Positions 30,111 through 62,190 of a stretch of DNA of 64,000 nt are shown in pieces. The translations under genes were made by a program, and so were the position numbers. The notes beneath the pieces are model-generated. The model worked only from the letters and a program-made list of their open reading frames with translations, searched no databases and was not told the origin of the DNA. Every line of letters starts with the position of its first letter. Position 1 is the first letter of the stretch. The stretch is taken from NCBI RefSeq assembly GCF_025639805.1, contig NZ_CP106735.1, positions 2,327,501 to 2,391,500 of the forward strand, read 5' to 3'. The DNA comes from Reichenbachiella carrageenanivorans. GTDB taxonomy: Bacteria > Bacteroidota > Bacteroidia > Cytophagales > Cyclobacteriaceae.

Positions 30111-30276
30111 CTTGTTTTGTAGCACTTTGGGCTCTTGCCAGCCATTCTGAACTATTGTTCATCAAATCTGAACGTATCTGCAAAGCCTCACAGGTCGCTT
30201 TAGCTAGTTTTACCTCATGCAACACAAGTGTTTCGAAAGTACATGTGTGTAGAAAGCTATGGTAAAAAGAAAGAAT

Positions 30277-33087: not shown

Positions 33088-36000
33088 ATGAAGGGATTAT
33101 TTAATAATGTAAGGGTTTGGGTGAGGGGAGCGATTCTCGCAGGTTTGGGTACGGTGGCTATACACAGCTTAGAAGCACAGGTTATAGCATCGTTCGAATC
33201 TACTTCGGACTTGGAGAAGTACAGCTCTAGCGGAGGCAGCCGCTTGTCTCTGAGTGGAGATAGGTACAAGTTTGGTAGTCATGCGTTGCATTGGGAATGG
33301 ACAGGACAAAGCACGATCAGTACCGAGGATTTCTTGATCTTGTCTCACGACGAGAGTCCTCTTAAATACGGCGATCATTTCCCTGCTAGTCCTACTTTTT
33401 GTTTCTCTATTTACAATGAAAAAGCACAAGAGACTCCGCTCAAATTTACTTTTAGCAAAGGGGTACAATCAGAGGTTTGGTTCTCGATAAACTTGGACTT
33501 TACAGGGTGGCGTACACTTTGGGTGCCGTTTCATGAAATGGAAGGCCAAGCTCCTCAGCGAGGAGAAGAAATCGCCTACGATGGTCTTACGATGTCAGTA
33601 GATGAGACAACTAGTTCGGGTAGCATTTACTTCGATGATATCATCTATTCGCAGTTTATCGACGATAGACATGCCTATCCAGATCAGTTAGTGCCTTTTA
33701 TCAAAAGAGACAAAGAGCCAGGGGCAGATCATTGGATGCCACTCATCAGAGATATAAACAGAATTAACCATGTCGAGTTGGTTCCTCTGGAGCCGAATAC
33801 CCTTGCTGAGTTGGCTAAAATAGAATCACGTATGAGTAGCTACACCGCATTAGCTCCTAGATACAAAATCTATATGGATCGTTTGGAGAGTGATTTTGAT
33901 AAACTAGAACTTAAAGAAATTGATGGGCGAGTAGTAGGGCCTCCGCTCACATTTAGTCATTCAGAATTTTCATATGGCAAAAATGAAGTAAACAACGGCA
34001 AGCACAACGACATCATGGACTTTGGAAAGACGATGAAGTCCTTGGGTACCTACTATGATCGGGCAGATGCTGGTCAGCGTACTAAAATCGAGGAGATGTT
34101 TGTGCTCGGTACTAAATACTACTTAGATCAAGGCTGGCAAGAAGGGGCCTCTGGTGGTACCAGGCATCACATCGGGTACAACACTCGTGAGTTGGCATTG
34201 GGCTTCTTTGTGATGCGGGAGGCACTTGAAGACAACGGCTTGATCAATGAAGTAGGCGCAAGCCTCATGTGGCTGTTCAATCTAGGTAAAATACTAGGGG
34301 ACGAAAGTGAGTTTCACGCCAATATAGATTATCTCAATACACAGGCTTTTTATCACCTGATGCTCATATTCTTGACCGATGACAAAGCCAAGCAACAGGC
34401 TCTTCTGCTTGCCTATTCCAATTATATGTCGATTGTACTCGCGCAAGACGATGAAAAGGGCGTGTTTAAAGTAGATGGCACGGGTTGGCATCACAATGGA
34501 CACTATCCAGCCTATGCACTGGGTGCTTATCGCAATGTGCCATCTATCATCCAGGCACTATCGAGTACTTCGTTTTCCATTAGCCCTGAAGGGCATGCCA
34601 ATTTCCGAAAGGCATTTATGGCTACCAGACTTTATAGTCATGGGTATGATATCGGATTCGGTAATGCTGGTCGTCATCCATTAGGCACAGATATTCGATC
34701 GCTTCGTGAGGCTTATTTGCAAATGACTAATGCGGGAGCGCCAGGGAGCACATCTGGTATAGACAAGGAGGTGGCAGCGGCTTATTTGAGTCTTTGGGGT
34801 GAGGAAGATCCCATTTCGGCACGTGTATTTGCAGCCCTCAATGGCGTAGAGAAAGAGGAGCTGTCAGGTTATTATACCTTCCCCTATGCGGCCACTGCTG
34901 TGCAAAAGAAAAACAACTGGGCGGCCATAATCAAGGGCTATAGCAAATATGTGTGGGCTTCTGAGATTTATGTGACTGACAATCGCTACGGGAGATACCC
35001 CGCCAATGGCACCATCCAGCTCTACAACGAAGGAGGCAATGAAGGCAGTGGTTTTGCTCACGACGGGTGGGACTGGAATCGCTACCCTGGAGCTACAGTG
35101 ATCAATCTGCCCTTCGAAGAACTCGAACCCGAAGCAGCACTGATCATGTATCGATCTGGAGAGACCTTTGCTGGAGCAGTAGAGCAAGATGGCAACGGTG
35201 TGTTTGGAATGATACTGAGTGAAACGAAGGGGTCGAATGCCGATGGTCCAGAGGTTAATATCGGTTACCCTGGACATCTGAAAGCTAAAAAATCAGTCTT
35301 TTCATTTGGCGATAAATTGATATGTATTGGTACAGATATCTCTAGTATAGATGCTGAGCACCCTACCCAGACCAACTTGTTTCAAGTGGCGCTGCCAGAT
35401 CAGAAAATGAAAATCTTGTCGTCCGAAACAGATCTTGGCTCTTTTCCAGAGACCCATCAGCTAGAAGAATCCAAGCAGGCCTGGGTGATCGATCCTTATG
35501 GTAATGGCTATCACTTATTAAGCGCACGAAAAGTGCATTTGCAAAAGAAACACCAGCAGTCTTATCACAATAAGTACTCCGTGAGAACGGGAAAGGCTTC
35601 TGGTAAAACAAAAGGGCAAAACGAAACCGAAGGGGATTTTGCTACGGCATGGATCGATCATGGCTTGGCGCCAAAGGGAGCGTCTTACCAGTATGTGATC
35701 TACCCATCGCTACCAGAAGACCAGTGGAAAAAATTTGGGGGCGCTTTGAAAAAAGAGAAAAGTTACGAAGTGCTACAAGCCAATGGTCAGGCGCATATTG
35801 TAAGAGATAAGAACAATCGTACGACGGGGTATGTGATCTATGAAGCGAGTGAGAACCTAACACATGGGCCGCTCACGGCTACGACTGATCCTCTGCTCAT
35901 GATGATCAAAGAAGCGAAGGGGCAACTCCTAATTCAGGTGGTACAACCCGATCTGAATTTTGAAGGCCATGGCAATAAATATGAGAACATGAGTAGGCCA

Positions 36001-36144
36001 GTGACGACCACATTTTCAGTGTCTGGCGTATGGAAAAAAGCCAATGATTCGGACGATGTGCAGGTAAAAGTAGAAGGGAGTTTTACCCACGTGACCGTGA
36101 CTTGTGTGCACGGCTTAGCAACTAAGGTACGATTAGTACGATAA
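33088..36144 (+). CDS. Chondroitin sulfate ABC-type lyase, polysaccharide lyase family 8
   Basis: The 1018-residue enzyme matches the size and domain order of Proteus vulgaris chondroitinase ABC I (1021 residues): signal peptide (1-30), N-terminal jelly roll (about 35-190, with LDFTGWRTLWVPF), alpha/alpha toroid catalytic domain (about 215-600), central beta-sandwich and C-terminal beta domain. Catalytic residues align by motif: His469 (HNGHYPAY) with His501, Tyr476 with Tyr508, Arg529 (NAGRHP) with Arg560, and Glu626 (VWASEIY..DNRYGRY) with Glu653. Such lyases cut chondroitin and dermatan sulfate and hyaluronan by beta-elimination, leaving unsaturated uronate for GH88. It has no type IX signal, so it may act in the periplasm on imported oligosaccharides. 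This is the strongest evidence for the substrate of the locus. Confidence 0.95.
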   Translation: MKGLFNNVRVWVRGAILAGLGTVAIHSLEAQVIASFESTSDLEKYSSSGGSRLSLSGDRYKFGSHALHWEWTGQSTISTEDFLILSHDESPLKYGDHFPASPTFCFSIYNEKAQETPLKFTFSKGVQSEVWFSINLDFTGWRTLWVPFHEMEGQAPQRGEEIAYDGLTMSVDETTSSGSIYFDDIIYSQFIDDRHAYPDQLVPFIKRDKEPGADHWMPLIRDINRINHVELVPLEPNTLAELAKIESRMSSYTALAPRYKIYMDRLESDFDKLELKEIDGRVVGPPLTFSHSEFSYGKNEVNNGKHNDIMDFGKTMKSLGTYYDRADAGQRTKIEEMFVLGTKYYLDQGWQEGASGGTRHHIGYNTRELALGFFVMREALEDNGLINEVGASLMWLFNLGKILGDESEFHANIDYLNTQAFYHLMLIFLTDDKAKQQALLLAYSNYMSIVLAQDDEKGVFKVDGTGWHHNGHYPAYALGAYRNVPSIIQALSSTSFSISPEGHANFRKAFMATRLYSHGYDIGFGNAGRHPLGTDIRSLREAYLQMTNAGAPGSTSGIDKEVAAAYLSLWGEEDPISARVFAALNGVEKEELSGYYTFPYAATAVQKKNNWAAIIKGYSKYVWASEIYVTDNRYGRYPANGTIQLYNEGGNEGSGFAHDGWDWNRYPGATVINLPFEELEPEAALIMYRSGETFAGAVEQDGNGVFGMILSETKGSNADGPEVNIGYPGHLKAKKSVFSFGDKLICIGTDISSIDAEHPTQTNLFQVALPDQKMKILSSETDLGSFPETHQLEESKQAWVIDPYGNGYHLLSARKVHLQKKHQQSYHNKYSVRTGKASGKTKGQNETEGDFATAWIDHGLAPKGASYQYVIYPSLPEDQWKKFGGALKKEKSYEVLQANGQAHIVRDKNNRTTGYVIYEASENLTHGPLTATTDPLLMMIKEAKGQLLIQVVQPDLNFEGHGNKYENMSRPVTTTFSVSGVWKKANDSDDVQVKVEGSFTHVTVTCVHGLATKVRLVR

Positions 36145-39400: not shown

Positions 39401-40936
39401 TTACCATTGAATGGGCTGGTAGTCTAAATAGTCTTCCCCTCTGATTTCTACAAATGCATCAAGCATTTGCTTTAGCCTTTCAGGTTCTGTTTCAGCGAGG
39501 TTGTGTTGCTGAGCTACATCCTCTTTTAGGTTGTAAAGCTGGAATGTGGTGTCGTTGCCAATTTCAATATTCACATCAGTCAATAATTTTCGTCCACCAT
39601 AAGGAGGAATCATGATCCAATCACCTTCACGGTAGGCGGTGCGAGTGGTTGCTTCTATTACAAGTGCTTTTCTGCCCGTATGAGTTTGTCCCAGCAAAGC
39701 ACTCAAGAGATCCTGACTGTCGCTAGTGGCTACTTCAGTGCCCACCAATCTAGCCAAAGAGGCTAAGAGGTCCATTTGGCATACGAGTGCTTCTGATACT
39801 GTAGGTTTTATTTTCCCTTTCCAGTAGGTAGCTAGTGGTACGCGAGCACCAGCGTCGAATAGACTGTATTTGCCCCCGCGCAAACCGCCAGTAGGTGTGT
39901 GGTCGCCCAGCAGCTCCACGGCTTGATCGTCATATCCATCATTGAGTACCGGGCCATTGTCGCTAGAGAATATAAGCAGGGTGTTTTCGAGTAAATCTTC
40001 TTCTTCCAATGTTTTCATCAATTCACCTATACACCAATCGGCCTCTAGAATTACATCACCACGAGGCCCTAGTTTAGATTTTCCTGCAAATCGAGGGTGA
40101 GGAATGCGTGGTACATGAGGCTGTTGCATGGCGTAGTAGAGGAAAAACGGCTCGGTTTTATGTGCTTGGATAAATGCCTGAGATTTGGCTAGAAAATGAT
40201 CGGCCATGTCTACATCTTTCCATCGGGCAGTAGCTCCTCCTTTCATGTAGCCGATACGAGGTACGCCATTTACTATTGTGTTTTGATGGCCAATGAGCGG
40301 TTTCATCGTGAGTTTTTCTGGGTGAGATACTGCTGTGGGTACATCTGCCAATGGCTGCTTGTAGCTCACCGTTATTGGATTGTTTGGGTCAAGGTTGGCT
40401 ACATAGCCATTGTCGATATAGACAGTAGGTACTCGATCTTGCGTAGCGGCCATGTAGTAGGCATCGTCAAACCCTACCTCATTCGGCCCCGGAGTAATCT
40501 GCTCATTCCAATCTACCGAGCCATCTCCTAAGCCCAAATGCCATTTGCCTACAAGGCCAGTGGCATATCCGCCTTTTTTTAGCATTTTAGGTAGCGTCAT
40601 TTGAGCGGTATCGATGATTAGTGGTGCGGTACCTGAGAGTATTTTAGCATTTTTCCGCCAAGGGTACCTGCCAGTGAGTATTGCATATCTACTGGGTGTG
40701 CATGTTGCCGAGGAGGCATAACCGTTGATAAACTTGACCCCACCATGGACCAATCTATCGATATGTGGGGTTTGAAGTTCGGTAGCTCCATAGCTACTAA
40801 GGTCACCATATCCCAGATCGTCTAAGTAGATCAGGATGATGTTGGGTTTGATCACATCATGTGTGGCTTCTTTTTGGGAGGTACAGCCCAAAAGGAGACT
40901 CAGGCCGACAAGGTAGAAGAATGGAAATCTATTCAT
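39401..40936 (-). CDS. Lipoprotein sulfatase, family S1 (arylsulfatase A / N-acetylgalactosamine-sulfatase-like)
   Basis: The 511-residue lipoprotein (lipobox LLLGC, Cys18) has NIILIYLDDLGYGDLSSYG (32-50), TPHIDRLVHGGVKF, formylglycine motif C79-T-P-S-R83, VGKWHLG, FSSDNGPV and the segment GGLRGGKYSLFDAGARVP, features of the arylsulfatase A/GalNAc-6-sulfatase type. A role in removing sulfate from the N-acetylgalactosamine of chondroitin is attractive because the gene is the last of an operon with a hexosamine-phosphate mutase (10-bp gap) and a LacI regulator rather than sitting with the other sulfatases. That link is inference. The metal-binding residues are complete. Confidence 0.9.
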   Translation of the reverse strand: MNRFPFFYLVGLSLLLGCTSQKEATHDVIKPNIILIYLDDLGYGDLSSYGATELQTPHIDRLVHGGVKFINGYASSATCTPSRYAILTGRYPWRKNAKILSGTAPLIIDTAQMTLPKMLKKGGYATGLVGKWHLGLGDGSVDWNEQITPGPNEVGFDDAYYMAATQDRVPTVYIDNGYVANLDPNNPITVSYKQPLADVPTAVSHPEKLTMKPLIGHQNTIVNGVPRIGYMKGGATARWKDVDMADHFLAKSQAFIQAHKTEPFFLYYAMQQPHVPRIPHPRFAGKSKLGPRGDVILEADWCIGELMKTLEEEDLLENTLLIFSSDNGPVLNDGYDDQAVELLGDHTPTGGLRGGKYSLFDAGARVPLATYWKGKIKPTVSEALVCQMDLLASLARLVGTEVATSDSQDLLSALLGQTHTGRKALVIEATTRTAYREGDWIMIPPYGGRKLLTDVNIEIGNDTTFQLYNLKEDVAQQHNLAETEPERLKQMLDAFVEIRGEDYLDYQPIQW

Positions 40937-40946
40937 GGTTGTAGGA

Positions 40947-42332
40947 TTATGATAAATGTTTCTGAATGTATGAGGAAGCTAGATCAAACAAAGCAATGGC
41001 TTTGCTTTCATTTTCCGACTCACTATAGATACGGATGATCGGTTCTGTGTTGGATTTTCGTATGTGAATCCACTCATTGCCATAGTAAACTTTGAGTCCA
41101 TCCTCCGTGTTGATCGGTTGGTCTGCAAAATCTTTCTGTAGTTTGGAGAGTAGAGTATCTACATCTATTTTAGGTGTCAGTGTGATTTTATTCTTTGCGA
41201 TAAATGAAGCAGGAGCATCTGCGCGGAGCTGCGAGACGGTGCTTTTGCATTTAGCTAGATAGGTCAAAAACAGGGCAATGCCTACCAGTGAGTCGCGACC
41301 ATAATGTAATTCGGGATAGATGATACCGCCATTGCCTTCGCCTCCGATTACGGCATTTACGGCTTTCATTTTGGCAACTACGTTCACTTCGCCTACAGCA
41401 GAATCGTGCCGTGTTTGTCCATGTTTTTCGGCTACTTGTGCCAGTCCAGCCGAGGACGACATGTTGGATACTACATCGCCAGGAGTCTCCTGCAGTACGT
41501 AATCGGCCACAAGTATAAGCGTATATTCTTCTCCTATAAAATGGCCTTTCTCATCGATGATTGCCAGGCGATCTACGTCTGGATCCACCACAAATCCTAC
41601 GTCATACTGCCCCTTTTTGATCAAATCGCAAAGATCTGTCAGGTGCTCAGGCAATGGCTCTGGGTTGTGAGGAAAGTGGCCTGTAGGCTCACAGTAGAGC
41701 TGCTCTACGGTAGTCACGCCCAGTGCTTCTAGTAGTGGAGGAATAGATATTCCGCCAGTAGAGTTGACTGCGTCTATGGCTACGCGAAGGTTGCTTTTTC
41801 GGATCAGGTCGGCATCTACGAGGGGTAGTGCCAGGATATCGTCTATATGCGATGCGATGTGTCGATCCGATTTAGTGATTTTGCCCAGGTCCATCACATC
41901 GGCAAAGTCGAACTGATTGGCTTCAGCCAAGGCGATGATCTGTTCTCCTTCTGCGCCTGAGAGAAATTCTCCCCATTGGTTTAGGAGTTTGAGGGCATTC
42001 CATTGTTTGGGGTTGTGACTGGCGGTGATGATGATACCACCGCCAGCATTTTCTTTGGGTACTGCTACTTCTACAGTGGGGGTGGTAGTGAGACCGATAT
42101 CAATGACTTCTATTCCCATGCCTACGAGTGTTTGGGCGATCAGCTGGCTGATCATCTCTCCTGAAATTCGGGCATCTCGTCCGATCACTATTTTTTTGTT
42201 GTTGGGAGACGCCTTGCAGACCCACTGGCCGTACGCTGCCGCAAACTTCACAGTGTCTATAGGAGTTAGGTTTTCTTCTGGCTTGCCGCCAATGGTGCCT
42301 CTGATGCCAGAGATAGATTTGATTAAAGTCAT
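40947..42332 (-). CDS. glmM: Phosphohexosamine mutase (GlmM-like, alpha-D-phosphohexomutase family)
   Basis: The 461-residue enzyme interconverts hexosamine 1- and 6-phosphates. All four family motifs are present: phosphoserine loop TASHNP (Ser105), metal-binding DPDVDR (250-255), the sugar-binding loop GEGNGG, and the phosphate-binding RKSNTEP near the C-terminus. Bacteroidota use this enzyme in peptidoglycan precursor synthesis, but here it lies between a LacI regulator and a sulfatase and across from nagB and a 1-kinase gene. A catabolic role, moving phosphate from C1 to C6 of N-acetylhexosamine, is therefore suggested. It could equally be the housekeeping gene; absence or presence of another copy in the genome would decide. 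Gaps of 10 bp on both sides show an operon. Confidence 0.88.
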   Translation of the reverse strand: MTLIKSISGIRGTIGGKPEENLTPIDTVKFAAAYGQWVCKASPNNKKIVIGRDARISGEMISQLIAQTLVGMGIEVIDIGLTTTPTVEVAVPKENAGGGIIITASHNPKQWNALKLLNQWGEFLSGAEGEQIIALAEANQFDFADVMDLGKITKSDRHIASHIDDILALPLVDADLIRKSNLRVAIDAVNSTGGISIPPLLEALGVTTVEQLYCEPTGHFPHNPEPLPEHLTDLCDLIKKGQYDVGFVVDPDVDRLAIIDEKGHFIGEEYTLILVADYVLQETPGDVVSNMSSSAGLAQVAEKHGQTRHDSAVGEVNVVAKMKAVNAVIGGEGNGGIIYPELHYGRDSLVGIALFLTYLAKCKSTVSQLRADAPASFIAKNKITLTPKIDVDTLLSKLQKDFADQPINTEDGLKVYYGNEWIHIRKSNTEPIIRIYSESENESKAIALFDLASSYIQKHLS

Positions 42333-42342
42333 GGTGTACTTT

Positions 42343-43389
42343 TTATTTTATGGTATCTAGGTTTTCTTTTATGATAATATCTAAGGGTAAAAAAGTGATG
42401 GCTGGCATCTCTTTGTTTAGAATGAGGTGATCGGCTAGGTTTTTTGCTGCTAGGCTCACCTGCATTTTTGGATTTTGATAAATCAGGTAGTCGATTGTGC
42501 TTTTGGTCAGATATGTTCTATTTTCCTGTATCAGATCATACCCAATCAGTAAGCAATCAATGTCGTTGTTGGCTAGGTACTGTGCCACTTTGTAGCACTT
42601 GGAGTTGGTCACATAGACCGCTACGATTCCTTTCTGTGTTTGAAAGACTTCATCAAAGTAAGAGAATAGCTCAGAGGCATCGTCTTTCTGAATATTGACT
42701 GTAGTGAGTTTGTAGCCTGCGTTTTCGGGTTTGCTGTAAAAATCGAAAAACCCAGCTTCTTTCTTTTGCATATGCAGTGCATTAGATACACTTTCATCGA
42801 AGTGTACGATCAGGATGTCTCCTTTTGTAGCGGTCGATTTTTTTATTAGACTGGCTGCTACCTGTCCGCTTTGAAATAGATCTTGCCCGATAAACGGCTG
42901 TGCACATTCTTTGAGTTGCGTGTTGAAAGTCACACATGGAATGTCTTGTTCTTTGCATTGCGTAAGGAATGCAATAGACTCTTGATAGAAAAATGGAGCG
43001 AAGATCACGCCATCAGGATGGGCATCGAGTAGTGCCTGGCTTTGATTGATAAAATCCTCCTTGTCCTTGGGGTCGAAGTAATAGCTGGCTACCTCGATGC
43101 TAAATAAGTCCATGGCGTCTACTGCTTGCTCCAGACCTTGCTGAGCAAACTGCCAATATTCATCAAGTTCGGGCGATGGAATTAAAAAAGCCATGACAGT
43201 TATTTTATTGGCTTGTAAAGCCTTAGCAAGCTTATTTGGTTTATAGTCTTGCTCTTCCAATACCTTCATCACCTTCTCTCGGGCTTTGTCCGAGACCTTG
43301 CCACGCCCATGCAATACCCGATCTACAGTGCCACGCGATACATCGGCCAACTTGGCGATGTCTTTGGTAGTGAGTCTTTCTTTTTTCAT
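42343..43389 (-). CDS. LacI-family transcriptional regulator (hexosamine module)
   Basis: I place the start at 43389 (ATG, MKKERLTTKD), since the helix-turn-helix begins there; an upstream frame would add 25 unlikely residues. The 348-residue protein has a LacI HTH (TTKDIAKLADVSRGTVDRVLHGRGKVS) and a periplasmic-binding-protein-like effector domain (about 65-348). The TVDRVLH recognition helix marks a Bacteroidota sublineage with a ribose-binding-like sensor. It heads the operon lacI-mutase-sulfatase and faces nagB across 241 bp that contain two operator-like palindromes at 43475-43509. It probably represses both units and responds to a hexosamine or its phosphate. Confidence 0.92.
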   Translation of the reverse strand: MKKERLTTKDIAKLADVSRGTVDRVLHGRGKVSDKAREKVMKVLEEQDYKPNKLAKALQANKITVMAFLIPSPELDEYWQFAQQGLEQAVDAMDLFSIEVASYYFDPKDKEDFINQSQALLDAHPDGVIFAPFFYQESIAFLTQCKEQDIPCVTFNTQLKECAQPFIGQDLFQSGQVAASLIKKSTATKGDILIVHFDESVSNALHMQKKEAGFFDFYSKPENAGYKLTTVNIQKDDASELFSYFDEVFQTQKGIVAVYVTNSKCYKVAQYLANNDIDCLLIGYDLIQENRTYLTKSTIDYLIYQNPKMQVSLAAKNLADHLILNKEMPAITFLPLDIIIKENLDTIK

Positions 43390-43474
43390 ATGCTTCGTCT
43401 TGTCTGAAGGTAAAAGTAAATACCCGCAGTGGAGGATTCTAAATGATTGTGCAAGTATAGTCAATATTTATAAA

Positions 43475-43515
43475 TGTTCATGTGAACAATATTAATGTGC
43501 ACGTGAACAAAACTA
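43475..43515. promoter_or_regulatory. Tandem operator-like palindromes between lacI and nagB
   Basis: TGTTCATGTGAACA (43475-43488) has perfect 6-base arms, and TGTGCACGTGAACA (43496-43509) is a close copy with one arm changed. Their starts are 21 bp apart, two helical turns, so two repressor dimers would sit on the same face. On the minus strand TAGTTTTG (43508-43515) matches the -7 consensus for the lacI gene and overlaps the second palindrome, which would allow autorepression. This is inferred from symmetry and position. Confidence 0.72.
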
Positions 43516-43630
43516 AATTATTTCTTGTTTTTAATCTTCGAATGTGTCAGGTTTGTAATCAATTAGAGAAGATTGGTGTCTATGACCCGTCTCTGTTTTA
43601 GTAAAAAAGTAACCCCAAATAGCAAGTCGT

Positions 43631-45550
43631 ATGATATCTGAAAAAGTAGATTATGGAAAAGGGAGTGTTGAAAGACTGCCTGTTAGTGTATTTAAATCCA
43701 ATCAGATTGGGAGTATAGCTGTAGCGGAGCAGATCGCCCGAATTATTCGTAGCAAAGCAGCCAAAGGCCAGCAGGCTGTTTTGGGGCTGGCTACTGGATC
43801 TAGCCCGATCAAAGTGTATGATGAGCTGATACGAATGCACCGCGAAGAGGACCTTTCTTTTGAGCATGTAGTTACATTCAACTTAGATGAATATTATCCC
43901 ATGAGCAATCGCTCGACCAAGGGGTATAATTATTTTATGCACGAGCAATTGTTTAATCATGTAGATATCAAACCAGAGAATATACACATTCCTAATGGTG
44001 AAATTTCGATACAAGAAGTGCATGACTATTGTGCCGACTATGAACGAAAAATAGACGAAGCGGGAGGTTTGGATGTGCAATTGTTGGGTATCGGGCGTAC
44101 AGGTCATATCGGGTTCAATGAGCCAGGGTCACATTTGGAGTCTCGTACTCGTCTGGTCAAGTTGGCTTCGCTTACTATACAAGATGCCGTCAATGATTTT
44201 GGGCGAGAAGAGCTTGTGCCCAGTCGTGCCATTACCATGGGAGTTCATAGCGTGTTTAAAGCCAAAAAAATTATAATGCTCGCTTGGGGTGAGAAAAAAG
44301 CACCAATCGTAAAAGAAGCTGTAGAAGGCGAAGTGAATGAAAAAGTGCCTGCTACTTTCTTGCAAAAGCATCCAGATGTAGAGGTGGTCCTCGATGAGCA
44401 TGCCGCTTTACATTTGTCGAGAGTCAAGACCCCTTGGGTTTCTTCTGTATGTGATTGGGACGCTCGACTTACCAAGTCTGCCGTGATTTGGTTGAGCAGA
44501 AAACTCAACAAGCCTATTCTAAAATTGACAGACGAAGACTATCGACTCAATGATCTCAATGATTTGCTGGCACTCTATACCGACAGTCAGGCTCTCAATG
44601 TCGAGATTTTCAACGCCTTGCAACGTACCATCACAGGTTGGCCGGGAGGTAAGCCAGGTGTAGACGATAAAAACAGGCCTGAACGAGCAGAGCCACAGCG
44701 TAAGCGTTCGATTGTATTTAGTCCTCACCCAGACGACGATGTGATCTCTATGGGAGGGACATTTCTCAAACTGGCTGAGCAAGGGCATGACGTGCATGTT
44801 GCTTATCAGACCTCTGGCAACATCGCTGTATTCGATGACGATGCTCGCCGATTTATGGAATTTTATAAGGACTTAAATCATGTATTGTCAGAAGACACCA
44901 AGGCCGCAGATCAGCATTTTGATGAGGTAGTCGCAGGGCTAGCCAACAAAGAAAATGAATACACAGATTTGCCGCTAGTCCGTACCATCAAAGGACTTAT
45001 TCGCAAAGGAGAAGCTGCGGCAGGTGCTCGATTTGTAGGCTTGGCAGATGATCATATGCATTTTCTCAATATGCCTTTTTATGAAACAGGAAAAGTGGAT
45101 AAAAAAGGGCTCGGAGAGGAAGATATCGACATCATCGTGCAGTTGCTCAGAGAGGTAAAACCTCATCAGGTATTTGCTGCAGGAGATTTGAGAGACCCGC
45201 ACGGGACGCACAAAGTTTGTCTGGATGCGATATTGGCGGCATTGGCCATTGTAAAAAAAGACGATTGGGCCAAGGACTGTTACCTATGGCTCTACCGTGG
45301 GGCATGGCAAGAGTGGGATATAGAAGAGATAGAAATGGCCGTGCCGCTCAGTCCAGTAGACTTGATGAAAAAACGAAAGGCCATTTTCAAACATCAATCT
45401 CAAAAAGATTCTCCAGTTTTCCCAGGTGACGACAAGCGGGAGTTTTGGCAGCGATCAGAAGATAGAAATAGGGAAACTGCCCGAGGGTATGATCAATTGG
45501 GCTTGACCGAATACGAAGCCATGGAGGCCTTTGTTCGATACGAATTCTAA
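43631..45550 (+). CDS. nagB: Glucosamine-6-phosphate deaminase fused to an LmbE/PIG-L deacetylase-like domain
   Basis: The 639-residue fusion has an N-terminal NagB domain (about 15-270) and a C-terminal LmbE-like domain (about 355-600). NagB motifs are LGLATGSSP, NLDEYY (Asp86, like Asp72 of E. coli), and GRTGHIGFNEPGS (His159 and Glu164, like His143 and Glu148). At the place of E. coli Asp141 there is Thr157. The LmbE part has the zinc motif SPHPDDD (His366, Asp368, Asp369) and a second metal segment DPHGTHK (His524, His527). Bacteroidota often have this fusion. It could deacetylate GlcNAc-6-phosphate and deaminate the product to fructose-6-phosphate; no separate nagA is seen here. It starts the module nagB-nucleotidyltransferase-kinase. 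Confidence 0.9.
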   Translation: MISEKVDYGKGSVERLPVSVFKSNQIGSIAVAEQIARIIRSKAAKGQQAVLGLATGSSPIKVYDELIRMHREEDLSFEHVVTFNLDEYYPMSNRSTKGYNYFMHEQLFNHVDIKPENIHIPNGEISIQEVHDYCADYERKIDEAGGLDVQLLGIGRTGHIGFNEPGSHLESRTRLVKLASLTIQDAVNDFGREELVPSRAITMGVHSVFKAKKIIMLAWGEKKAPIVKEAVEGEVNEKVPATFLQKHPDVEVVLDEHAALHLSRVKTPWVSSVCDWDARLTKSAVIWLSRKLNKPILKLTDEDYRLNDLNDLLALYTDSQALNVEIFNALQRTITGWPGGKPGVDDKNRPERAEPQRKRSIVFSPHPDDDVISMGGTFLKLAEQGHDVHVAYQTSGNIAVFDDDARRFMEFYKDLNHVLSEDTKAADQHFDEVVAGLANKENEYTDLPLVRTIKGLIRKGEAAAGARFVGLADDHMHFLNMPFYETGKVDKKGLGEEDIDIIVQLLREVKPHQVFAAGDLRDPHGTHKVCLDAILAALAIVKKDDWAKDCYLWLYRGAWQEWDIEEIEMAVPLSPVDLMKKRKAIFKHQSQKDSPVFPGDDKREFWQRSEDRNRETARGYDQLGLTEYEAMEAFVRYEF

Positions 45551-45554
45551 AAAC

Positions 45555-45662
45555 ATGTTGTTGAAAGGGTCGATCCTTGCCGCGGTGTTTGCAGGCTTGG
45601 TGTATTTACTAATTAGACTTTGGTCAAAATTGAATATTGAAGAAAATGAAGAAGGAAAATAA
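45555..45662 (+). CDS. Possible 35-residue single-span membrane peptide
   Basis: A short open frame begins 4 bases after the nagB stop. It encodes a peptide with one hydrophobic segment (LAAVFAGLVYLLI) followed by a basic stretch (RLWSKL) and an acidic tail (IEENEEGK). It overlaps the first 17 bases of the nucleotidyltransferase gene, which suggests either translational coupling or a leader peptide. The frame is too short for statistical support and could be chance; the clean membrane-span and charge pattern is the only positive sign. Confidence 0.4.
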   Translation: MLLKGSILAAVFAGLVYLLIRLWSKLNIEENEEGK

Positions 45663-46587
45663 ACCTGTATTGGTCGTGTTGGCTGCTGGCCTAGGAAGTA
45701 GATATGGTAGCCTCAAGCAAATGGATCATTTTGGTCCATCAGGGGAGACTATTGTAGATTATGCGATATATGATGCGATAGCCGCGGGGTTCGACAAGAT
45801 CGTTTTTGTGATAAGAAAAAATTTCGAAGAAGAATTCAAAGAAATATTTGGACCCAAGATGGAAGGGCGAATCAAAGTAGCCTATGTCTATCAGGAGCTA
45901 GAAAACTTGCCAGCAGGACTGGATGTGCCAGCTGGGAGAGAAAAACCATGGGGTACTGGGCATGCTGTGATGATGGCCGCTTCAGAGGTAGATCAGCCTT
46001 TTGCGATTGTGAATGCAGATGATTTTTATGGACGTACGTCTTTTGATAAGATTATTGACCAATTGAAAGCCATGGACAATAGTAAGTTGGATGCTTGCTT
46101 AGTTGGGTTTGTACTGAAAAATACGCTTTCAGATCATGGGCGTGTGTCCCGAGGGGTTTGCAAAGTGAATGATGCAGGGTGTTTGGATACCATTACCGAA
46201 AGGACACATATTTACAAGAAAACAGAAGGTGGAGCTTATTATGAGGAACAGGGGCAGCGCACAGATTTGACAGGAGAGGAATGCGTGTCTATGAATTTGA
46301 TGGGCTTTACTTCCAAAGTGTTTGATGATATGGAAGACGCTTTTGTGGACTTTTATCATGTACAAGTTGGAGACCTAAAGGCTGAGTTTTTCATTCCCAC
46401 GGTGTTGGACAATGTGAGAAAATCTCAAATTCCTGTTACCGTACTGACGAGTACTGAGCAGTGGTTTGGAGTGACTTACAAAGAAGATAAACCGATCGCG
46501 CAAGCCAATTTGAAGGCATTGGTACAGAAAGGAGTTTACCCAAACAACTTGTGGGCAACTACAGGGGAGGAATTAGAAAAGAACTAA
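45646..46587 (+). CDS. Sugar-phosphate nucleotidyltransferase
   Basis: I choose ATG at 45646; a TTG three codons upstream is less likely. The 313-residue protein has the nucleotidyltransferase signature LAAGLGSRYGSLKQ, a WGTGHAV segment and the metal-binding NADDFYG. The product would couple a sugar 1-phosphate with a nucleotide, giving for example UDP-GalNAc or UDP-GlcNAc, or run in reverse. It lies between nagB-LmbE and a NahK-like kinase (10-bp gap), so a role in the hexosamine 1-phosphate route is likely. The sugar and the nucleotide are not determinable from sequence alone. The family also includes proteins annotated only as NDP-sugar pyrophosphorylases. Confidence 0.85.
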   Translation: MKKENKPVLVVLAAGLGSRYGSLKQMDHFGPSGETIVDYAIYDAIAAGFDKIVFVIRKNFEEEFKEIFGPKMEGRIKVAYVYQELENLPAGLDVPAGREKPWGTGHAVMMAASEVDQPFAIVNADDFYGRTSFDKIIDQLKAMDNSKLDACLVGFVLKNTLSDHGRVSRGVCKVNDAGCLDTITERTHIYKKTEGGAYYEEQGQRTDLTGEECVSMNLMGFTSKVFDDMEDAFVDFYHVQVGDLKAEFFIPTVLDNVRKSQIPVTVLTSTEQWFGVTYKEDKPIAQANLKALVQKGVYPNNLWATTGEELEKN

Positions 46588-46597
46588 AATCAAAAAC

Positions 46598-47671
46598 ATG
46601 AAAGAGATCATATCGCAGTTTTTTGGTGACAAAAAATTTAGTAAGGCCATTCCATTTGGTTCGGGACATATCAACGATACCTATAGAATAGTGGGAGTAG
46701 AAGGGGTGCAAGAGGATTTTTTGCTGCAGCGGATCAATCATCATGTTTTTCAGGACGTCCCCTTGCTTATGGGCAACATGGTGGCTGTCACGGATCACCT
46801 CAACAGAAAGATCGTAACTTCAGCTGAGTTGTCAAGTACTACACAGACGATTGATATTATACCTGCGATCAACGGGCAAAGCTTTATTGAGGATGGTTCT
46901 GGGGATTTTTGGAGAGTGATGGTTTTCCTCAAAGGGTATGAGTCTTACGATCTAGTTGAAACACCCGAACAGGCTTATTATGGTGCTCGTGCTTTTGGGC
47001 AGTTCATGATGATGCTGGATGATTTCGATGCGAGTACATTGGGAGATGTGATTCCTGATTTTCACAATATCATCAGTCGATTGACTGCTTTTCAATCGGC
47101 TGTATCTCAAGATGTTGCTGGTCGGGTAGCCAGATGCCAAGATGAGATCAAGTATGTGCTTTCATTGGCAGATCAAATGTGTGGCATCGAAAAGCTGAAA
47201 CAATCGGGTGCTATTAGGCAAAGAGTCACTCACAACGACACCAAGTTCAACAATGTACTGTTGTCTGCCGACCACCAGCGCAGCTGTGTGATCGATCTGG
47301 ATACTGTGATGCCCGGAGTGGTGCATTATGATTTTGGCGATGGGGTACGTACGAGTACAGGCACCGCAGCAGAAGATGAGCTTAATTTGGATAAAATACA
47401 GTTCGATATGGAGAAGTTTGAGGCCTTCGCTCATGGTTATTTAGAAATGACCCGAGAGGTGTTGCAGCCAATTGAGCTCGCCCATTTGGCCTTGTCAGGT
47501 CCCTTGCTCGCATATATTATGGGGGTACGTTTTCTTACGGATTACCTCAGTGGAGATCATTATTACAAAATCGCCTACGAGCAGCATAACTATGATCGAG
47601 CCCGAAACCAGCTGACATTTACTAAAAGAATGATGGAACGCCTCCCAGACATGGCTGCTATTCTAGCATAG
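46598..47671 (+). CDS. N-acetylhexosamine 1-kinase-like (NahK-type aminoglycoside phosphotransferase fold)
   Basis: The 357-residue protein has an APH-type kinase fold: N-terminal lobe with GSGHINDTY (21-29), the catalytic loop THNDTKFNNVL (Asp214 as probable base, Asn218/219 for metal) and the DFG-like VIDLDTVMPG (Asp233, Asp235), followed by YDFGDGVR. These match NahK of bifidobacteria, which phosphorylates GlcNAc and GalNAc at C1. Here it closes the operon nagB-nucleotidyltransferase-kinase. It would trap free N-acetylhexosamine released by GH88. The identification is by motifs recalled from NahK, so an activity test or close-homologue search is needed for certainty. Confidence 0.8.
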   Translation: MKEIISQFFGDKKFSKAIPFGSGHINDTYRIVGVEGVQEDFLLQRINHHVFQDVPLLMGNMVAVTDHLNRKIVTSAELSSTTQTIDIIPAINGQSFIEDGSGDFWRVMVFLKGYESYDLVETPEQAYYGARAFGQFMMMLDDFDASTLGDVIPDFHNIISRLTAFQSAVSQDVAGRVARCQDEIKYVLSLADQMCGIEKLKQSGAIRQRVTHNDTKFNNVLLSADHQRSCVIDLDTVMPGVVHYDFGDGVRTSTGTAAEDELNLDKIQFDMEKFEAFAHGYLEMTREVLQPIELAHLALSGPLLAYIMGVRFLTDYLSGDHYYKIAYEQHNYDRARNQLTFTKRMMERLPDMAAILA

Positions 47672-47906: not shown

Positions 47907-48923
47907 TCACCCTTTTTTAAGAGACGAAGCTCTCACTACCAGATGAGCTGGCACCAAGCGGTCTGTGTCGGGCGACGGCTTAGTCGACAATTCGCCCAGT
48001 AGGGTTTGCATTGCTACTTTTCCTATTTCTTTTGGGTTTTGATTGACAGAGGTGAGGGCAGGGCTAAGGTAGTTGCCCAGCGGCTCGTTGCTAAAGCCCA
48101 CGAAGGCGATGTCCTCAGGTATCTTCACACCCTTTTCTATGAGCAACTGCATAGCAGAAATAGCCGTGAGGTCATTGGCACAAAAGATACCATCTGGTCG
48201 CAGGGGCATATCCAAGACCTGCTGAGCGAGTAGTTTGCCATCTGCTTCTTTCAGTGCACTGGTCAGTATTAGCTCTTCAGACACCACAAGGCCGTGGTCT
48301 TTTAGGGCTTGACAATAGCCTTGTTTTCGATCGTGGTAGATGCTGATTTGGTCCGATCCAGTAAAATGTACAATGCGTCTGCATCCTTGATCGATCAGAT
48401 GTTTGGTGGCTTCATAGCCCATCTGAAAATCATCAATATGGATGGTTGGCAAGCTCAGCCCATTGCATTTTCTGTCAAAAAGCACAAGTGGTACTTCCTG
48501 ATTCAATACATGCTTGAGGTGATCCGTGTTTTCGGTTTCCATAGAAATAGATACCAGCAGCCCATCTACCTGATATGAGAGTAGCGTTTGTATCATCTGC
48601 TGCTCGCGCTCGATCTGGTCGTGCGACTGACAAATAATGACTTGATAGCCGTTTTCAGTCGCGTGCTCTTCTATTCCTGCTATCACAGTAGAGAAAAAAT
48701 ACCGAGAAATATAAGGAACTACCACCCCAATGGTTAGTGTGCGCTTGGAGCGCAAATTAGAAGCCACCACATTTCTAGAATAGCCCAGTTCTTTGGCTTT
48801 CGCCTGAATGAGGTCACGTGTTTTTTGTTTTACACGTGGGCTATTAGCCAATGCTCTAGACACCGTAGAACTGTCAATGTTCAGCATTTTGGCTAAGTCA
48901 TGGATGGTTACTTTTTTTTTCAT
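47907..48923 (-). CDS. LacI-family transcriptional regulator (uronate module)
   Basis: The 338-residue protein has a LacI HTH at its N-terminus (VTIHDLAKMLNIDSSTVSRAL) with hinge and a sugar-binding domain (from about 60: LTIGVVVPYISRYFF). It faces the DUF4861-kduI-kduD-TRAP operon. A 22-bp perfect palindrome lies 30 bp upstream of its start and against the promoter of the divergent operon, so it is likely to repress both. The effector could be a keto-deoxy-uronate such as KDG; this is inference from gene neighbours. The 235-bp gap on its other side has no gene that I can support. Confidence 0.92.
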   Translation of the reverse strand: MKKKVTIHDLAKMLNIDSSTVSRALANSPRVKQKTRDLIQAKAKELGYSRNVVASNLRSKRTLTIGVVVPYISRYFFSTVIAGIEEHATENGYQVIICQSHDQIEREQQMIQTLLSYQVDGLLVSISMETENTDHLKHVLNQEVPLVLFDRKCNGLSLPTIHIDDFQMGYEATKHLIDQGCRRIVHFTGSDQISIYHDRKQGYCQALKDHGLVVSEELILTSALKEADGKLLAQQVLDMPLRPDGIFCANDLTAISAMQLLIEKGVKIPEDIAFVGFSNEPLGNYLSPALTSVNQNPKEIGKVAMQTLLGELSTKPSPDTDRLVPAHLVVRASSLKKG

Positions 48924-50244: not shown

Positions 50245-51084
50245 ATGAGTACAACATTCGAAACAAGATATGCTTCTAGCCCAGAGGCAGTAAGCAAATA
50301 TGGGACAACAGCTCTCAGAGACGAATTTTTGATAGATAACCTAATGGAAGCTGGTAAGGTAGTATGGGTATACACCCACTATGACCGCTACATGGCTGGT
50401 TCTGCAGTGCCTACTTCTGCCTTGAAGTTAGAAACCATAGATCCGTTAAAATCTGATACTTTTTTAGCACGTAGAGAGCTTGGAATTATCAATGTAGGCG
50501 GAAACGGTAGCGTGACGGTAGACGGCGAAAAGCATGAGTTGGGTTACAAAGACGCCCTATACATTGGCCAAGGAGCCAAAGACGTGGTATTCGAAAGCAA
50601 CGACGCGGCTAACCCTGCTAAGTTTTACCTAAATTCAGCACCTGCACATCACGCATTTCCTACTAAGAAAGTGACATTGGCGGAAGCCAGCAAACTAGAC
50701 CTAGGTACACCAGAAACGGCCAACGCTCGTACGGTAAATCAAATGCTGATCGGTGGTGTGGTAGATACTTGCCAGTTACAAATGGGAATGACTGAATTGA
50801 AATCAGGAAGCGTATGGAATACCATGCCAGCTCACGTACACGACAGAAGAATGGAAGTATACTTCTACATCGAAGTGCCTGAAGGTCAGTCGGTATGTCA
50901 CTTCATGGGACAGCCACAGGAGACCAGACACATCTGGATGCAAAACGAAGAGGCGGTGATCTCTCCCCCTTGGTCTATCCACTCAGGCGCAGGTACGTCT
51001 AACTACACTTTCATCTGGGGAATGGCTGGAGAAAACCTCGACTACGGCGATATGGACGTAGCAGCAATCAACGATTTGAAATAA
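50245..51084 (+). CDS. kduI: 5-dehydro-4-deoxy-D-glucuronate isomerase (4-deoxy-L-threo-5-hexosulose-uronate ketol-isomerase)
   Basis: KduI converts 5-keto-4-deoxyuronate, formed from the 4,5-unsaturated uronate, to 2,5-diketo-3-deoxygluconate. The 279-residue length matches E. coli KduI (278). The zinc ligands are present in order: His197 and His199 (PAHVHDRRMEVYFY), Glu204 and His246 (WSIHSGAGT), exactly one residue shifted from E. coli His196, His198, Glu203, His245. It is 13 bp upstream of kduD. The pair shows that unsaturated uronate from lyase action is the main carbon entering this operon. Confidence 0.96.
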   Translation: MSTTFETRYASSPEAVSKYGTTALRDEFLIDNLMEAGKVVWVYTHYDRYMAGSAVPTSALKLETIDPLKSDTFLARRELGIINVGGNGSVTVDGEKHELGYKDALYIGQGAKDVVFESNDAANPAKFYLNSAPAHHAFPTKKVTLAEASKLDLGTPETANARTVNQMLIGGVVDTCQLQMGMTELKSGSVWNTMPAHVHDRRMEVYFYIEVPEGQSVCHFMGQPQETRHIWMQNEEAVISPPWSIHSGAGTSNYTFIWGMAGENLDYGDMDVAAINDLK

Positions 51085-51097
51085 AAAAATTAGAACA

Positions 51098-51889
51098 ATG
51101 TCAATTAAATTATTCGATACCAGTGGAAAAGTGGCGCTCGTGACGGGCGGCACGCACGGATTAGGGATGGCTATGGCCAAAGGCATAGGCCTATCAGGTG
51201 CGACGATCATAGTAAATGGCAGATCTCAAGACACAGTAGATGAGGCAGTAGCCCAATACCAATCTTGGGGCATCACGGCGCATGGATATGCCTTCGACGT
51301 GACCGACGAAAAAGCAGTAGATGCAGCCCTTACTAAAATAGAAAACGAAGTAGCACCAGTAGATATCCTAGTCAACAATGCAGGGATCATCAAGCGTACG
51401 CCTTTGTTGGAAATGGAGTTGGAAGATTGGAATGCAGTGATCGAAGTGGATCTGACTGCTCCATTCATCGTGTCTAAGCGAGTGGTGAAAGGCATGATCG
51501 AGCGTGGTCATGGCAAGGTGATCAATATCTGCTCTATGATGAGCGAATTGGGTAGAAATACCGTGGGCGCTTATGCAGCGGCCAAAGGTGGCCTGAAGAT
51601 GTTGACCAGAAACATGGCGACCGAGTGGGCGCGTCACAACATCCAAATCAACGGCATCGGGCCAGGTTATTTTGCGACTTCGCAGACGGCTCCTATCAGA
51701 GTAGATGGTCATCCGTTCAATGATTTCATCATAGGCCGAACACCTGCAGCCAGATGGGGAGACCCTTCTGACCTCGAAGGTGCAGCAGTATTTTTGTCTT
51801 CGAAAGCGAGTGATTTTGTCAATGGGCAGATCGTATATGTAGACGGAGGTATTTTGGCTACTATTGGTAAACCTGCCAATGAGGCCTAA
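51098..51889 (+). CDS. kduD: 2-dehydro-3-deoxy-D-gluconate 5-dehydrogenase (KduD-type SDR)
   Basis: KduD reduces 2,5-diketo-3-deoxygluconate to KDG. The 263-residue short-chain dehydrogenase has the cofactor motif TGGTHGLG (16-23), NNAG (93-96) and the catalytic Ser146 with Tyr159-x-x-x-Lys163 (YAAAK). The C-terminus (YVDGGILATIG) is typical. Its last codons overlap the start of the TRAP binding-protein gene by 11 bp, so uptake and catabolism are translated together. Confidence 0.94.
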   Translation: MSIKLFDTSGKVALVTGGTHGLGMAMAKGIGLSGATIIVNGRSQDTVDEAVAQYQSWGITAHGYAFDVTDEKAVDAALTKIENEVAPVDILVNNAGIIKRTPLLEMELEDWNAVIEVDLTAPFIVSKRVVKGMIERGHGKVINICSMMSELGRNTVGAYAAAKGGLKMLTRNMATEWARHNIQINGIGPGYFATSQTAPIRVDGHPFNDFIIGRTPAARWGDPSDLEGAAVFLSSKASDFVNGQIVYVDGGILATIGKPANEA

Positions 51890-56192: not shown

Positions 56193-57398
56193 ATGCTAGC
56201 AGTTATAGAGAGCAACCCTTACTTGCTCAAATTTGTATCCATGACACTCGCCGTGGTGATTGTGGGCTTTTTTTTGAAAATGCTCAAGCAAACGCACGTG
56301 ATCGTTTATATCATCACTGGAGTGGTGGTGGGGCCACATGTGTTGGGTGTATTTACTGACGCCGAACTGATCACTTCATTAGGCTCACTGGGTTTGATCC
56401 TGCTGCTTTTTTTCATTGGCATGGAGATTTCTCTACAGAAGCTCGTGGCCAATTGGAAGATATCTGTGATAGGCACCATCCTCCAAGTGATATTTAGCGT
56501 GCTAGCAGTATGGCTCATAGGCCAATATTATGACTGGTCTATGGCTAGAATATTGACCTTAGGGTTTGTGGTGAGCTTGAGTAGTACAGCCGTGATTGTG
56601 AAATTACTTCAAGACTCTGGAGAGATAGATCATCCCGTGGGGCAAAATGTACTGGGCGTATTGCTAGTGCAAGATGTACTGATTGTGCCTATGCTCATTT
56701 GTATGAGTTACTTGTCTGGCACAGAGACTTCCGTGTCAGAGATTGCTTTGCAGTTGGTCGGAGGGGTACTCCTGATTGGGTTCGTTCTGTTTTTGTTTTA
56801 CAAAAAGGAAATCAGACTGCCCTTTCACAAGACCTTGAAAAGTGACCACGAACTGCAAGTGTTTTTTGCCTTTGGCCTATGTTTCGGGTTTTCCACCATT
56901 TCGGGTTTTTTCGGACTGTCTACTGCCTTAGGAGCTTTCATTGCAGGTATTTTTGTAGCTACATCCAAGTCTACCAATTGGTTTCATAAAAGTCTATATT
57001 CCTTTAAGGTTCTTTTTGTGGCACTATTTTTCATCTCCATTGGCATGTTGATAGATATCCACTTTTTGTGGGAACATTTGGTTGTGATAGGCGCTTTGGT
57101 GATTGTAGTTTTTATTTCCAACAACCTGATCAATGCGTTAATTATGCGTGGATTTAAAATGAGCTGGAAAGACAGTCTCTATGCAGGTGCTTTGCTTTCG
57201 CAAATAGGGGAGTTCAGTTTTGTACTGGGGCAGTTGGCTTATTCCAATGAGATCATTACCAACTTTGGTTATCAGACCATTGTGGCAGTGATCTCATTGA
57301 CGCTTCTGCTCAGTCCGTTTTGGATCGGGCTGACGAAGCGTTTTACAAGTACAGCGGAGGTGTCTTCTACAGCGACACGCCACGCTTCCAAGGAATAA
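56193..57398 (+). CDS. Kef/CPA2-type monovalent cation:proton antiporter
   Basis: The 401-residue protein has about 12 membrane segments and the Na_H_Exchanger pattern: VYIITGVVVGPHVLG, GLILLLFFIGMEISL, VVSLSSTAVIVKLLQ, LLVQDVLIVPMLI and TALGAFIAGIFVATS. No soluble TrkA-N domain follows, so it is the membrane part only. Its final 32 bases overlap the end of uxaA on the opposite strand. It could respond to acid stress or sodium balance; there is no direct tie to the uronate pathway apart from position. Confidence 0.92.
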   Translation: MLAVIESNPYLLKFVSMTLAVVIVGFFLKMLKQTHVIVYIITGVVVGPHVLGVFTDAELITSLGSLGLILLLFFIGMEISLQKLVANWKISVIGTILQVIFSVLAVWLIGQYYDWSMARILTLGFVVSLSSTAVIVKLLQDSGEIDHPVGQNVLGVLLVQDVLIVPMLICMSYLSGTETSVSEIALQLVGGVLLIGFVLFLFYKKEIRLPFHKTLKSDHELQVFFAFGLCFGFSTISGFFGLSTALGAFIAGIFVATSKSTNWFHKSLYSFKVLFVALFFISIGMLIDIHFLWEHLVVIGALVIVVFISNNLINALIMRGFKMSWKDSLYAGALLSQIGEFSFVLGQLAYSNEIITNFGYQTIVAVISLTLLLSPFWIGLTKRFTSTAEVSSTATRHASKE

Positions 57399-60428: not shown

Positions 60429-60434
60429 AATTTC

Positions 60435-61727: not shown

Positions 61728-62190
61728 GATTGTCTTTTAGCTGAGTGAAAAAATCTGAAAGGGCATAAAAACAGATGAGCAATCCGCTCAGCGGAAGTGC
61801 CAGATAGACATAGCCTAGCGACAAGTGCATGGCAGAAGAGGTCTGCCCGAGCTGAAACGAAATGATGACAAGTCGAGTGCCCCCAACAATCAAAGCGACG
61901 ATCGAAAAGGCCGATATGAGTATTCTGATGGTCAGTTGCTGTATGTGTTTTTGCTGCGTGGTGAGTTTTCGTTCGAGCAGTTCTATGGCTACGTGCATGC
62001 CTTTGCCGGAGGCATAGGCGGCACCGAGTAGCCCTACCCAGATGAGTAAATACCTAGACAGTTCGTCGGTAAATGCGCTAGGGTCGTTGAGCAAGTACCT
62101 GGAGGCTACCTGCCAGAGTACATTGAGTACCATCAGGCCTAATAATAGGCTGAGGCTGATCTCTAAAAATTTATCCAACTTATTTCTCAT
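61714..62190 (-). CDS. TRAP transporter small membrane subunit (DctQ family, second system)
   Basis: The 158-residue protein has four hydrophobic segments and the DctQ signature SRYLLNDPSAFTDELSRYLLIWVGLLGAAYA. It begins at a normal ATG, unlike its paralogue at 52861. It overlaps dctP by 11 bp and dctM by 14 bp. Confidence 0.93.
   Translation of the reverse strand: MRNKLDKFLEISLSLLLGLMVLNVLWQVASRYLLNDPSAFTDELSRYLLIWVGLLGAAYASGKGMHVAIELLERKLTTQQKHIQQLTIRILISAFSIVALIVGGTRLVIISFQLGQTSSAMHLSLGYVYLALPLSGLLICFYALSDFFTQLKDNHGAS

Follow-up and report, generated by a model that had tools for sequence, protein, structure and literature searches.

A candidate GalNAc 1-phosphate and nucleotide-sugar catabolic gene cluster beside a chondroitin utilization locus in Reichenbachiella carrageenanivorans

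Introduction

What becomes of N-acetylgalactosamine (GalNAc), which accounts for half the sugar in chondroitin sulfate and is the core sugar of mucin O-glycans, once it is inside a cell of the Bacteroidota? We address this question with five genes at 40947-47671 of a 64,000-nucleotide stretch of the Reichenbachiella carrageenanivorans genome (the window: positions 2327501-2391500 of C1, the only contig of this 4.81 Mb genome, G000 in our set). They encode a GlmM-type phosphohexosamine mutase, a LacI-family regulator, a NagB-LmbE fusion, a sugar-1-phosphate nucleotidyltransferase (NTase), and a NahK-type N-acetylhexosamine 1-kinase. The observation of the cluster is solid; that it forms a 1-phosphate/nucleotide-sugar route for GalNAc catabolism is the account of the facts that we consider likely, with a kinase step of a known kind and later steps that we propose from the genes and their distribution.

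The kinase step has a precedent. BT4240 of Bacteroides thetaiotaomicron is an N-acetylhexosamine kinase with an approximately 275-fold preference for GalNAc (Ndeh et al., 2025, PMC11992087). It is needed for growth on GalNAc, and without it cells reach about half the growth on chondroitin sulfate; the O1 position of phosphorylation was measured on N-acetylglucosamine (GlcNAc) and inferred for GalNAc (PMC11992087). The B. thetaiotaomicron polysaccharide utilization locus (PUL) for chondroitin is described as encoding no kinase (PMC6994673), GalNAc supported the growth of most of 17 Bacteroides strains (PMC9745678), and the text of a 2017 survey places the known GalNAc pathway only in Actinobacteria, Firmicutes, and Proteobacteria (PMC5583593). 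No word in the main text of the kinase study begins with nucleotidyltransferase, mutase, UDP-GalNAc, or deacetylase (PMC11992087), and we found no paper on the steps after the kinase in Bacteroidota in the open-access literature (subscription papers and preprints were outside the search). The original prediction for this locus had known of no description of such a pathway in the phylum; because the kinase step has been published (PMC11992087), only the steps after it would be new.

Results

The cluster comprises two divergent runs, with LacI, mutase, and a sulfatase on the minus strand and NagB-LmbE, NTase, and NahK on the plus strand (Table 1). Both minus-strand gaps (LacI-mutase and mutase-sulfatase) are 10 bp; on the plus strand, 86 bp separate NagB-LmbE from NTase and 10 bp separate NTase from NahK. 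All five cluster genes are intact open reading frames (ORFs) adjoining the chondroitin PUL, and profile and structure matches agree on the families originally named for them. The LacI ORF is listed from a TTG, with an internal ATG near 43389 judged by eye to be the likelier start.

The window NahK matches the Bifidobacterium longum N-acetylhexosamine 1-kinase 4ocu over residues 6-357 (E 4e-68), with the HNDTK.NN stretch aligned. The HNDTKFNN stretch is invariant in 16 of 16 aligned NahK relatives, and the family together with this active-site stretch predicts an O1 kinase of GalNAc/GlcNAc. The NTase matches 3pnn at 310 bits, and its AlphaFold model (pLDDT, the predicted local distance difference test score, 90) has the RmlA/GlmU/GalU fold; a single-sequence model with a mean pLDDT of 44.7 was discarded. 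The fusion scores 1014 bits against the NF002557 cut-off of 384 and carries Glucosamine_iso and PIG-L domains. Within its LmbE domain the metal/catalytic motifs HPDDD (366-370) and DPHGTH (522-527) are kept in 6 of 6 aligned copies. Four solved structures matched this domain at E <=0.001, over about 50 residues only, and two of these are named diacetylchitobiose deacetylases; MshB and BshB-type enzymes came next (E 0.2 to 0.6). The mutase scores 506 bits against the TIGR03990 cut-off of 439, and its TASHNP serine motif (at 103) and GEGNGG loop are present, as in all 12 copies displayed.

The distribution of these genes was followed in 59 genomes, in 80 NahK loci from a genome collection, and in 17 to 18 further genomes. 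NahK occurs in 25 of the 59 genomes and in 4 of 8 within the genus. The NTase was present in every one of the 25 NahK genomes versus 10 of the 34 without NahK (Fisher 9.6e-9), and when one genome was kept per genus the counts were 22/22 versus 6/29 (2.5e-9, deeper relatedness uncorrected). The two genes lie less than 300 bp apart in 12 of the 25. Seventeen further NahK genomes, chosen as lacking the NTase at the NahK locus, each carry a homologue at another site (43-52% identity), so that both sets together give an NTase homologue in 42 of 42 NahK genomes searched. At the level of loci, the NTase is found in 20 of 80, upstream of NahK on the same strand in 19 and on the other strand about 2 kb off in one (L061). 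The neighbours of NahK in these loci are GalNAc/GlcNAc genes: a NagP-like transporter in 24, GH109 in 13, GH20 in 13, and NagB-LmbE in 9. Many of the 80 stretches are short, several reaching less than 1 kb upstream of NahK. A mutase was counted in two of them, one of which (L078, 25% identity) is another phosphohexomutase, and GalE in four, of which L013 and L060 (25-30%) were not used.

In the NTase tree, the window copy belongs to a clade of five rows (100/100), every one of them adjacent to NahK; the remaining NTases of the genus make up a clade far from it. NahK-adjacent NTases overall are not one group in this tree (6 changes, with 20 of 500 shuffles as low); three copies just upstream of NahK (L026, L036, L057) were labelled non-adjacent in that test.

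Extra copies of three of the genes accompany NahK. GlmM is over the TIGR03990 cut-off in 55 of the 59 genomes and the NTase is present in 35, and two GlmM copies, or two intact NTases, occur only in the R. carrageenanivorans genome and in G003 of the same genus (the pieces in G036 are fragments). NagB-LmbE is over its cut-off in 35 genomes and present twice in five (G000, G003, G007, G016, G021). G000 and G003 are thus the only genomes of the 59 with two GlmM and two intact NTases, both also have two NagB-LmbE, and in each the extra copies lie with NahK; the second R. carrageenanivorans GlmM is at C1:1130478-1131827. Among 18 further genomes, two GlmM over the cut-off were found only in Pedobacter (G059).

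Nine cluster copies of NagB-LmbE form one clade (100/99); its tenth row, L131, is a fragment of the copy in the window. The remaining two cluster copies, both of Sphingobacteriaceae origin, fall in a separate group. Across the 59 genomes NahK and the fusion are weakly linked (19 of 25 NahK genomes versus 16 of 34 without, p 0.033). The two Reichenbachiella cluster copies of GlmM group at 100/100, and the Pedobacter cluster copy stands beside the other copy of its own genome (89/79, not starred). The three cluster copies were grouped in 0 of 200 bootstrap trees, the starred branches alone being compatible with one origin, and the label test on its own carries little weight (57 of 500 shuffles scored as low). 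The Pedobacter cluster GlmM was apparently recruited independently, as judged from this tree.

The predicted scheme placed the epimerase outside the cluster, and two GalE genes over the cut-off do lie elsewhere in the genome (C1:2040341 and C1:1679072). In relatives, GalE joins the cluster itself. Pedobacter glucosidilyticus (L081) has a run of LacI, NahK, a NagP-like transporter, NagB-LmbE, GlmM, and GalE, adjoined by KduI and KduD; its operon is without the NTase, of which the genome has one elsewhere. Reichenbachiella faecimaris (L120) has a run of NagB-LmbE, a short NahK-like gene, NTase, NahK, and GalE, with LacI and GlmM divergent. At a third locus (L021), which has a set made up of LacI, NagB-LmbE, symporter, NTase, and NahK, about 1 kb separates GalE from the LacI gene.

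The absences that had been predicted also held in the whole genome: NagA was not found (three partial matches, the best at 37 bits against a cut-off of 225.65) and AgaS gave 0 matches, with AgaA judged through the NagA model only. Since there is no NagA, the LmbE domain is the best candidate deacetylase. Treating the fusion as a plain replacement for NagA proved too simple: it is also present in 13 of 16 genomes with NagA at >=170 bits. Of these 16, 10 have a separate NagB match no more than about 2 kb from NagA, and none shows a fusion within 10 kb of it.

The second NagB-LmbE (C1:3545563-3547491) precedes NagX-like, NagK/BadF-like, and ROK-family genes (L124:6528-11596), a GlcNAc-type set without NagA; all three score below their NCBIfam cut-offs, and the ROK gene is above that of Pfam. 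These GlcNAc-type neighbours favour GlcNAc-6-P as the substrate of that other copy, and it is possible that the cluster LmbE acts on GlcNAc-1-P rather than GlcNAc-6-P.

There was no sign of a 6-phosphate route in R. carrageenanivorans itself. An AgaS-like gene is present in 3 of 5 genus members searched (G001, G002, G003; each at about 366 bits, under the 529.2 cut-off). By eye, genes for a PfkB-like kinase and a class II aldolase come next after the AgaS-like gene of G003 (L144:7379-10339). Because of these genes a 6-phosphate GalNAc route probably exists in the genus, and its members seem to differ in, or combine, 1-phosphate and 6-phosphate GalNAc routes.

A single LacI regulator had been proposed to hold the cluster together, and the divergent gap supports this. 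Two palindromes, TGTTCATGTGAACA at 43475 and TGTGCACGTGAACA at 43496, lie 21 bp apart between LacI and NagB-LmbE. The same gap in R. faecimaris holds TGTTCACGTGAACA and TGTTCTCGTGAACA, again 21 bp apart, and elsewhere in the R. carrageenanivorans genome (C1:1869838) TGTTCTCGAGAACA occurs twice at this spacing, about 150 bp before a short NahK-like gene. Because form and spacing recur in R. faecimaris and in the same genome, the pairs are probably the LacI operator, a putative assignment from sequence. In the operator scan 6 of 100 shuffles give two or more sites in the window, genome-wide sites with <=2 mismatches number 37, fewer than in the reversed control (59), and palindromes at L021 and L027 only loosely resemble the operator. 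The idea that the operator regulates the whole PUL was unsupported, as the window has only two sites, both in this gap.

The short NahK-like gene encodes an orphan protein of 234 aa (L140:6024-6728; C1 approximately 1870023-1870727), in which the HND catalytic stretch is missing. The R. faecimaris cluster contains its homologue (232 aa, L120:10113-10811, 66%, dN/dS approximately 0.17). A search of 5.8 billion proteins listed, besides the protein itself, the R. faecimaris homologue, one match at 44%, and a full-size APH protein at 30%. It is perhaps a regulatory half-kinase. With palindromes paired at 21 bp in front of each, the GalNAc set and the orphan gene are probably under a single LacI.

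The surroundings look like a glycosaminoglycan PUL: the window scan, in which Pfam covered 37 of the 44 listed ORFs (those of at least 150 aa), found two SusC/SusD pairs, a hybrid two-component regulator, a GH88-like protein, sulfatases, a PL8 lyase, KduI, a KduD-like dehydrogenase, and TRAP transporters. None of the 37 ORFs matched a GH112-type LnpA, the rest of the genome not having been searched for it. A GalNAc-6-O-sulfatase and S1_15 sulfatases are among the solved relatives of the sulfatase whose gene follows that of the mutase. The DUF4955 proteins at 17319-18869 and 30259-33027 both have pectate-lyase-like domains and are possibly novel lyases or enzymes of uronate metabolism. Another pair, 511-541 aa long (10012-11637 and 18870-20405), has no Pfam match; one follows a SusD gene and the other precedes a SusC gene, and they are possibly surface glycan-binding. 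On the minus strand at 57367-63199, altronate dehydratase-like and mannitol dehydrogenase-like genes and a second TRAP transporter make up a further uronate set adjoining the PUL.

Table 1. Features of the cluster and its neighbours (window coordinates).
Feature	Position	Strand	Basis
GlmM-type phosphohexosamine mutase, extra copy	40947..42332	-	TIGR03990, second genome copy, motifs
LacI-family regulator	42343..43464	-	Pfam LacI and Peripla_BP_4
Probable tandem operator, 14-bp palindromes 43475-43488 and 43496-43509	43475..43509	.	Divergent promoter gap
NagB-LmbE fusion, glucosamine-6-phosphate deaminase and PIG-L type N-deacetylase domains, extra copy	43631..45550	+	Pfam, NF002557
Sugar-1-phosphate nucleotidyltransferase (NTase), proposed UTP:GalNAc-1-P/GlcNAc-1-P uridylyltransferase	45637..46587	+	Homology, fold, NahK co-occurrence
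NahK-type N-acetylhexosamine 1-kinase	46598..47671	+	Pfam, match to 4ocu, HNDTKFNN stretch
Sulfatase, in line after the mutase gene	39401..40936	-	7ozc 631 bits, 6s20 543 bits
PL8 lyase of the adjoining PUL, nearest to chondroitin ABC lyases	33088..36144	+	1hn0, 387 bits
Second LacI-family regulator, beside uronate genes	47907..48923	-	Pfam
KduI and KduD-like short-chain dehydrogenase, for the uronate half of the disaccharide	50245..51889	+	KduD name by position and similarity

Discussion

From the genes, their families, linkage, and co-occurrence, and from the absences, we infer every substrate, reaction direction, and regulatory link of the following scheme, which as a whole is probably the best explanation of the cluster. 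It would be a dedicated cytoplasmic route for GalNAc freed from chondroitin/dermatan sulfate. NahK would convert GalNAc to GalNAc-1-P, and the NTase would combine this with UTP to give UDP-GalNAc. GalE, encoded elsewhere in R. carrageenanivorans and within the cluster in R. faecimaris and Pedobacter, would yield UDP-GlcNAc, from which the same NTase, or GlmU, running in reverse, would release GlcNAc-1-P. GlcNAc could also enter at this point. The extra GlmM and the LmbE domain would then, in either order, transfer the phosphate to C6 and deacetylate the sugar, and the NagB domain would turn glucosamine-6-P into fructose-6-P and ammonia. The LacI protein would control both divergent operons through the two operators 21 bp apart.

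The pathway originally predicted from this locus led with GlcNAc. Its outline has gained from the co-occurrence, the adjacency, the extra copies, and the joining of GalE in relatives; its lead substrate has not, and GalNAc is likely the main one. The nearest relatives of the PL8 lyase are chondroitin ABC lyases, GalE joins such clusters, and the other NagB-LmbE adjoins GlcNAc-type kinase genes.

PIG-L type deacetylases have known substrates that often carry a group on C1. A bolder version, which we offer tentatively and think rather doubtful, is that GalNAc-using Bacteroidota generally run hexosamine biosynthesis backwards, from GalNAc-1-P over UDP-GalNAc and UDP-GlcNAc to GlcNAc-1-P, with LmbE converting GlcNAc-1-P to glucosamine-1-P and GlmM converting this, its customary substrate, to glucosamine-6-P for the fused NagB, so that GlcNAc-6-P would never arise. 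Such an order would account for the recruitment of GlmM together with a PIG-L type deacetylase in place of NagA and a GlcNAc-6-P mutase.

Several observations weigh against a GalNAc route of this kind. The RmlA/GlmU/GalU fold match does not tell which nucleotide or sugar the NTase uses, and the genome also carries one GalT, far from the window (C1:6211-7248). In the stretch examined, NagB-LmbE is unseen in 71 of the 80 NahK loci and a close GlmM in 79, and in two members of the same genus (G002 and G005) the sequence retrieved around NahK shows none of the NTase, the fusion, and the mutase. NTase genes are also found where NahK is missing, in 10 of 34 genomes and in all 4 NahK-less members of the genus, and the family must therefore have another job too. 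NagA is commoner in genomes with NahK (12 of 25) than in those without (4 of 34), and of 13 NagA-less NahK genomes, 3 are without a NagB-LmbE over the cut-off; the other 10 have one.

The closest competitor, which we nevertheless think unlikely, would centre on GlcNAc: GlcNAc-1-P would pass through GlmM and LmbE to glucosamine-6-P, GalE and UDP-sugars would be unneeded, and the NTase would serve something else. This would fit the action of B. longum NahK on both sugars (PMC11992087) and a window cluster that is itself without GalE. It fits poorly with GalE inside the clusters of R. faecimaris and Pedobacter, with an NTase that tracks NahK, with a PUL that looks built for chondroitin, and with the separate GlcNAc-type set in the same genome.

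Slightly less probable still is anabolic salvage, in which NahK and the NTase would make UDP-N-acetylhexosamines for envelope polymers, NagB-LmbE and GlmM would balance the hexosamine pool, and there would be little net GalNAc catabolism. NTase and GlmM families are used in biosynthesis, and the NahK-less genomes with an NTase point the same way; the deaminase-deacetylase fusion in the same operon, beside a chondroitin PUL, argues otherwise, as does B. thetaiotaomicron, in which the 1-kinase is catabolic because cells without BT4240 fail to grow on GalNAc (PMC11992087). We give least credence to a loose neighbourhood of hexosamine housekeeping copies brought together by chance, with GalNAc used via other enzymes: the many NahK loci without NagB-LmbE or GlmM favour it, but the NTase in every NahK genome searched, the single clade of nine cluster fusions, the cluster GlmM copies in two families, and the shared operator pairs all speak against it.

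If the GalNAc route is correct, the locus would supply the steps after the 2025 kinase. Its candidate enzymes for every later step make the gap in the GalNAc pathway directly testable by deletion of a few genes in a laboratory strain.

Among known systems, the lacto-N-biose/galacto-N-biose (LNB/GNB) pathway of bifidobacteria consists of the phosphorylase LnpA, NahK (LnpB), the GalT-type LnpC, and GalE (LnpD). The route proposed here is probably a new variant of this Leloir-like scheme. Both would begin with O1 phosphorylation by a NahK homologue and proceed through UDP-GalNAc/UDP-GlcNAc with GalE. Unlike the LNB/GNB pathway, the cluster has no GalT-type uridylyltransferase and instead an RmlA/GlmU-fold NTase, an LmbE-NagB fusion in place of NagA, and a dedicated GlmM, and its sugar would come from a chondroitin PUL. 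The Aga pathway (AgaA, AgaS, and the tagatose route) likewise feeds GalNAc into glycolysis, but it uses 6-phosphate intermediates, unlike the proposed route, and AgaS has no match in this genome.

GalY, the predicted GalT replacement (Amuc_0031), resembles the NTase in belonging to Pfam PF00483 and in being proposed for a hexose-1-P (PMC5583593). It was proposed for galactose and is clustered with galE in 15 genomes (PMC5583593). The likeness is at the level of the Pfam family. The NTase did not track the absence of GalT in the 59 relatives (GalT in 14 of 35 NTase genomes versus 7 of 24 without), and the genus's other NTase lies near no recognised galactose gene, which left the idea that the NTase replaces GalT unsupported.

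The nearest parallel within the phylum is BT4240, also a NahK-related kinase serving the GalNAc of chondroitin sulfate in Bacteroidota. That kinase is encoded in a mucin PUL (BT4240-50) with GH2, GH109, and a transporter (PMC11992087). Unlike BT4240, the window kinase is grouped with a complete set of candidate genes for the later steps, next to a chondroitin PUL.

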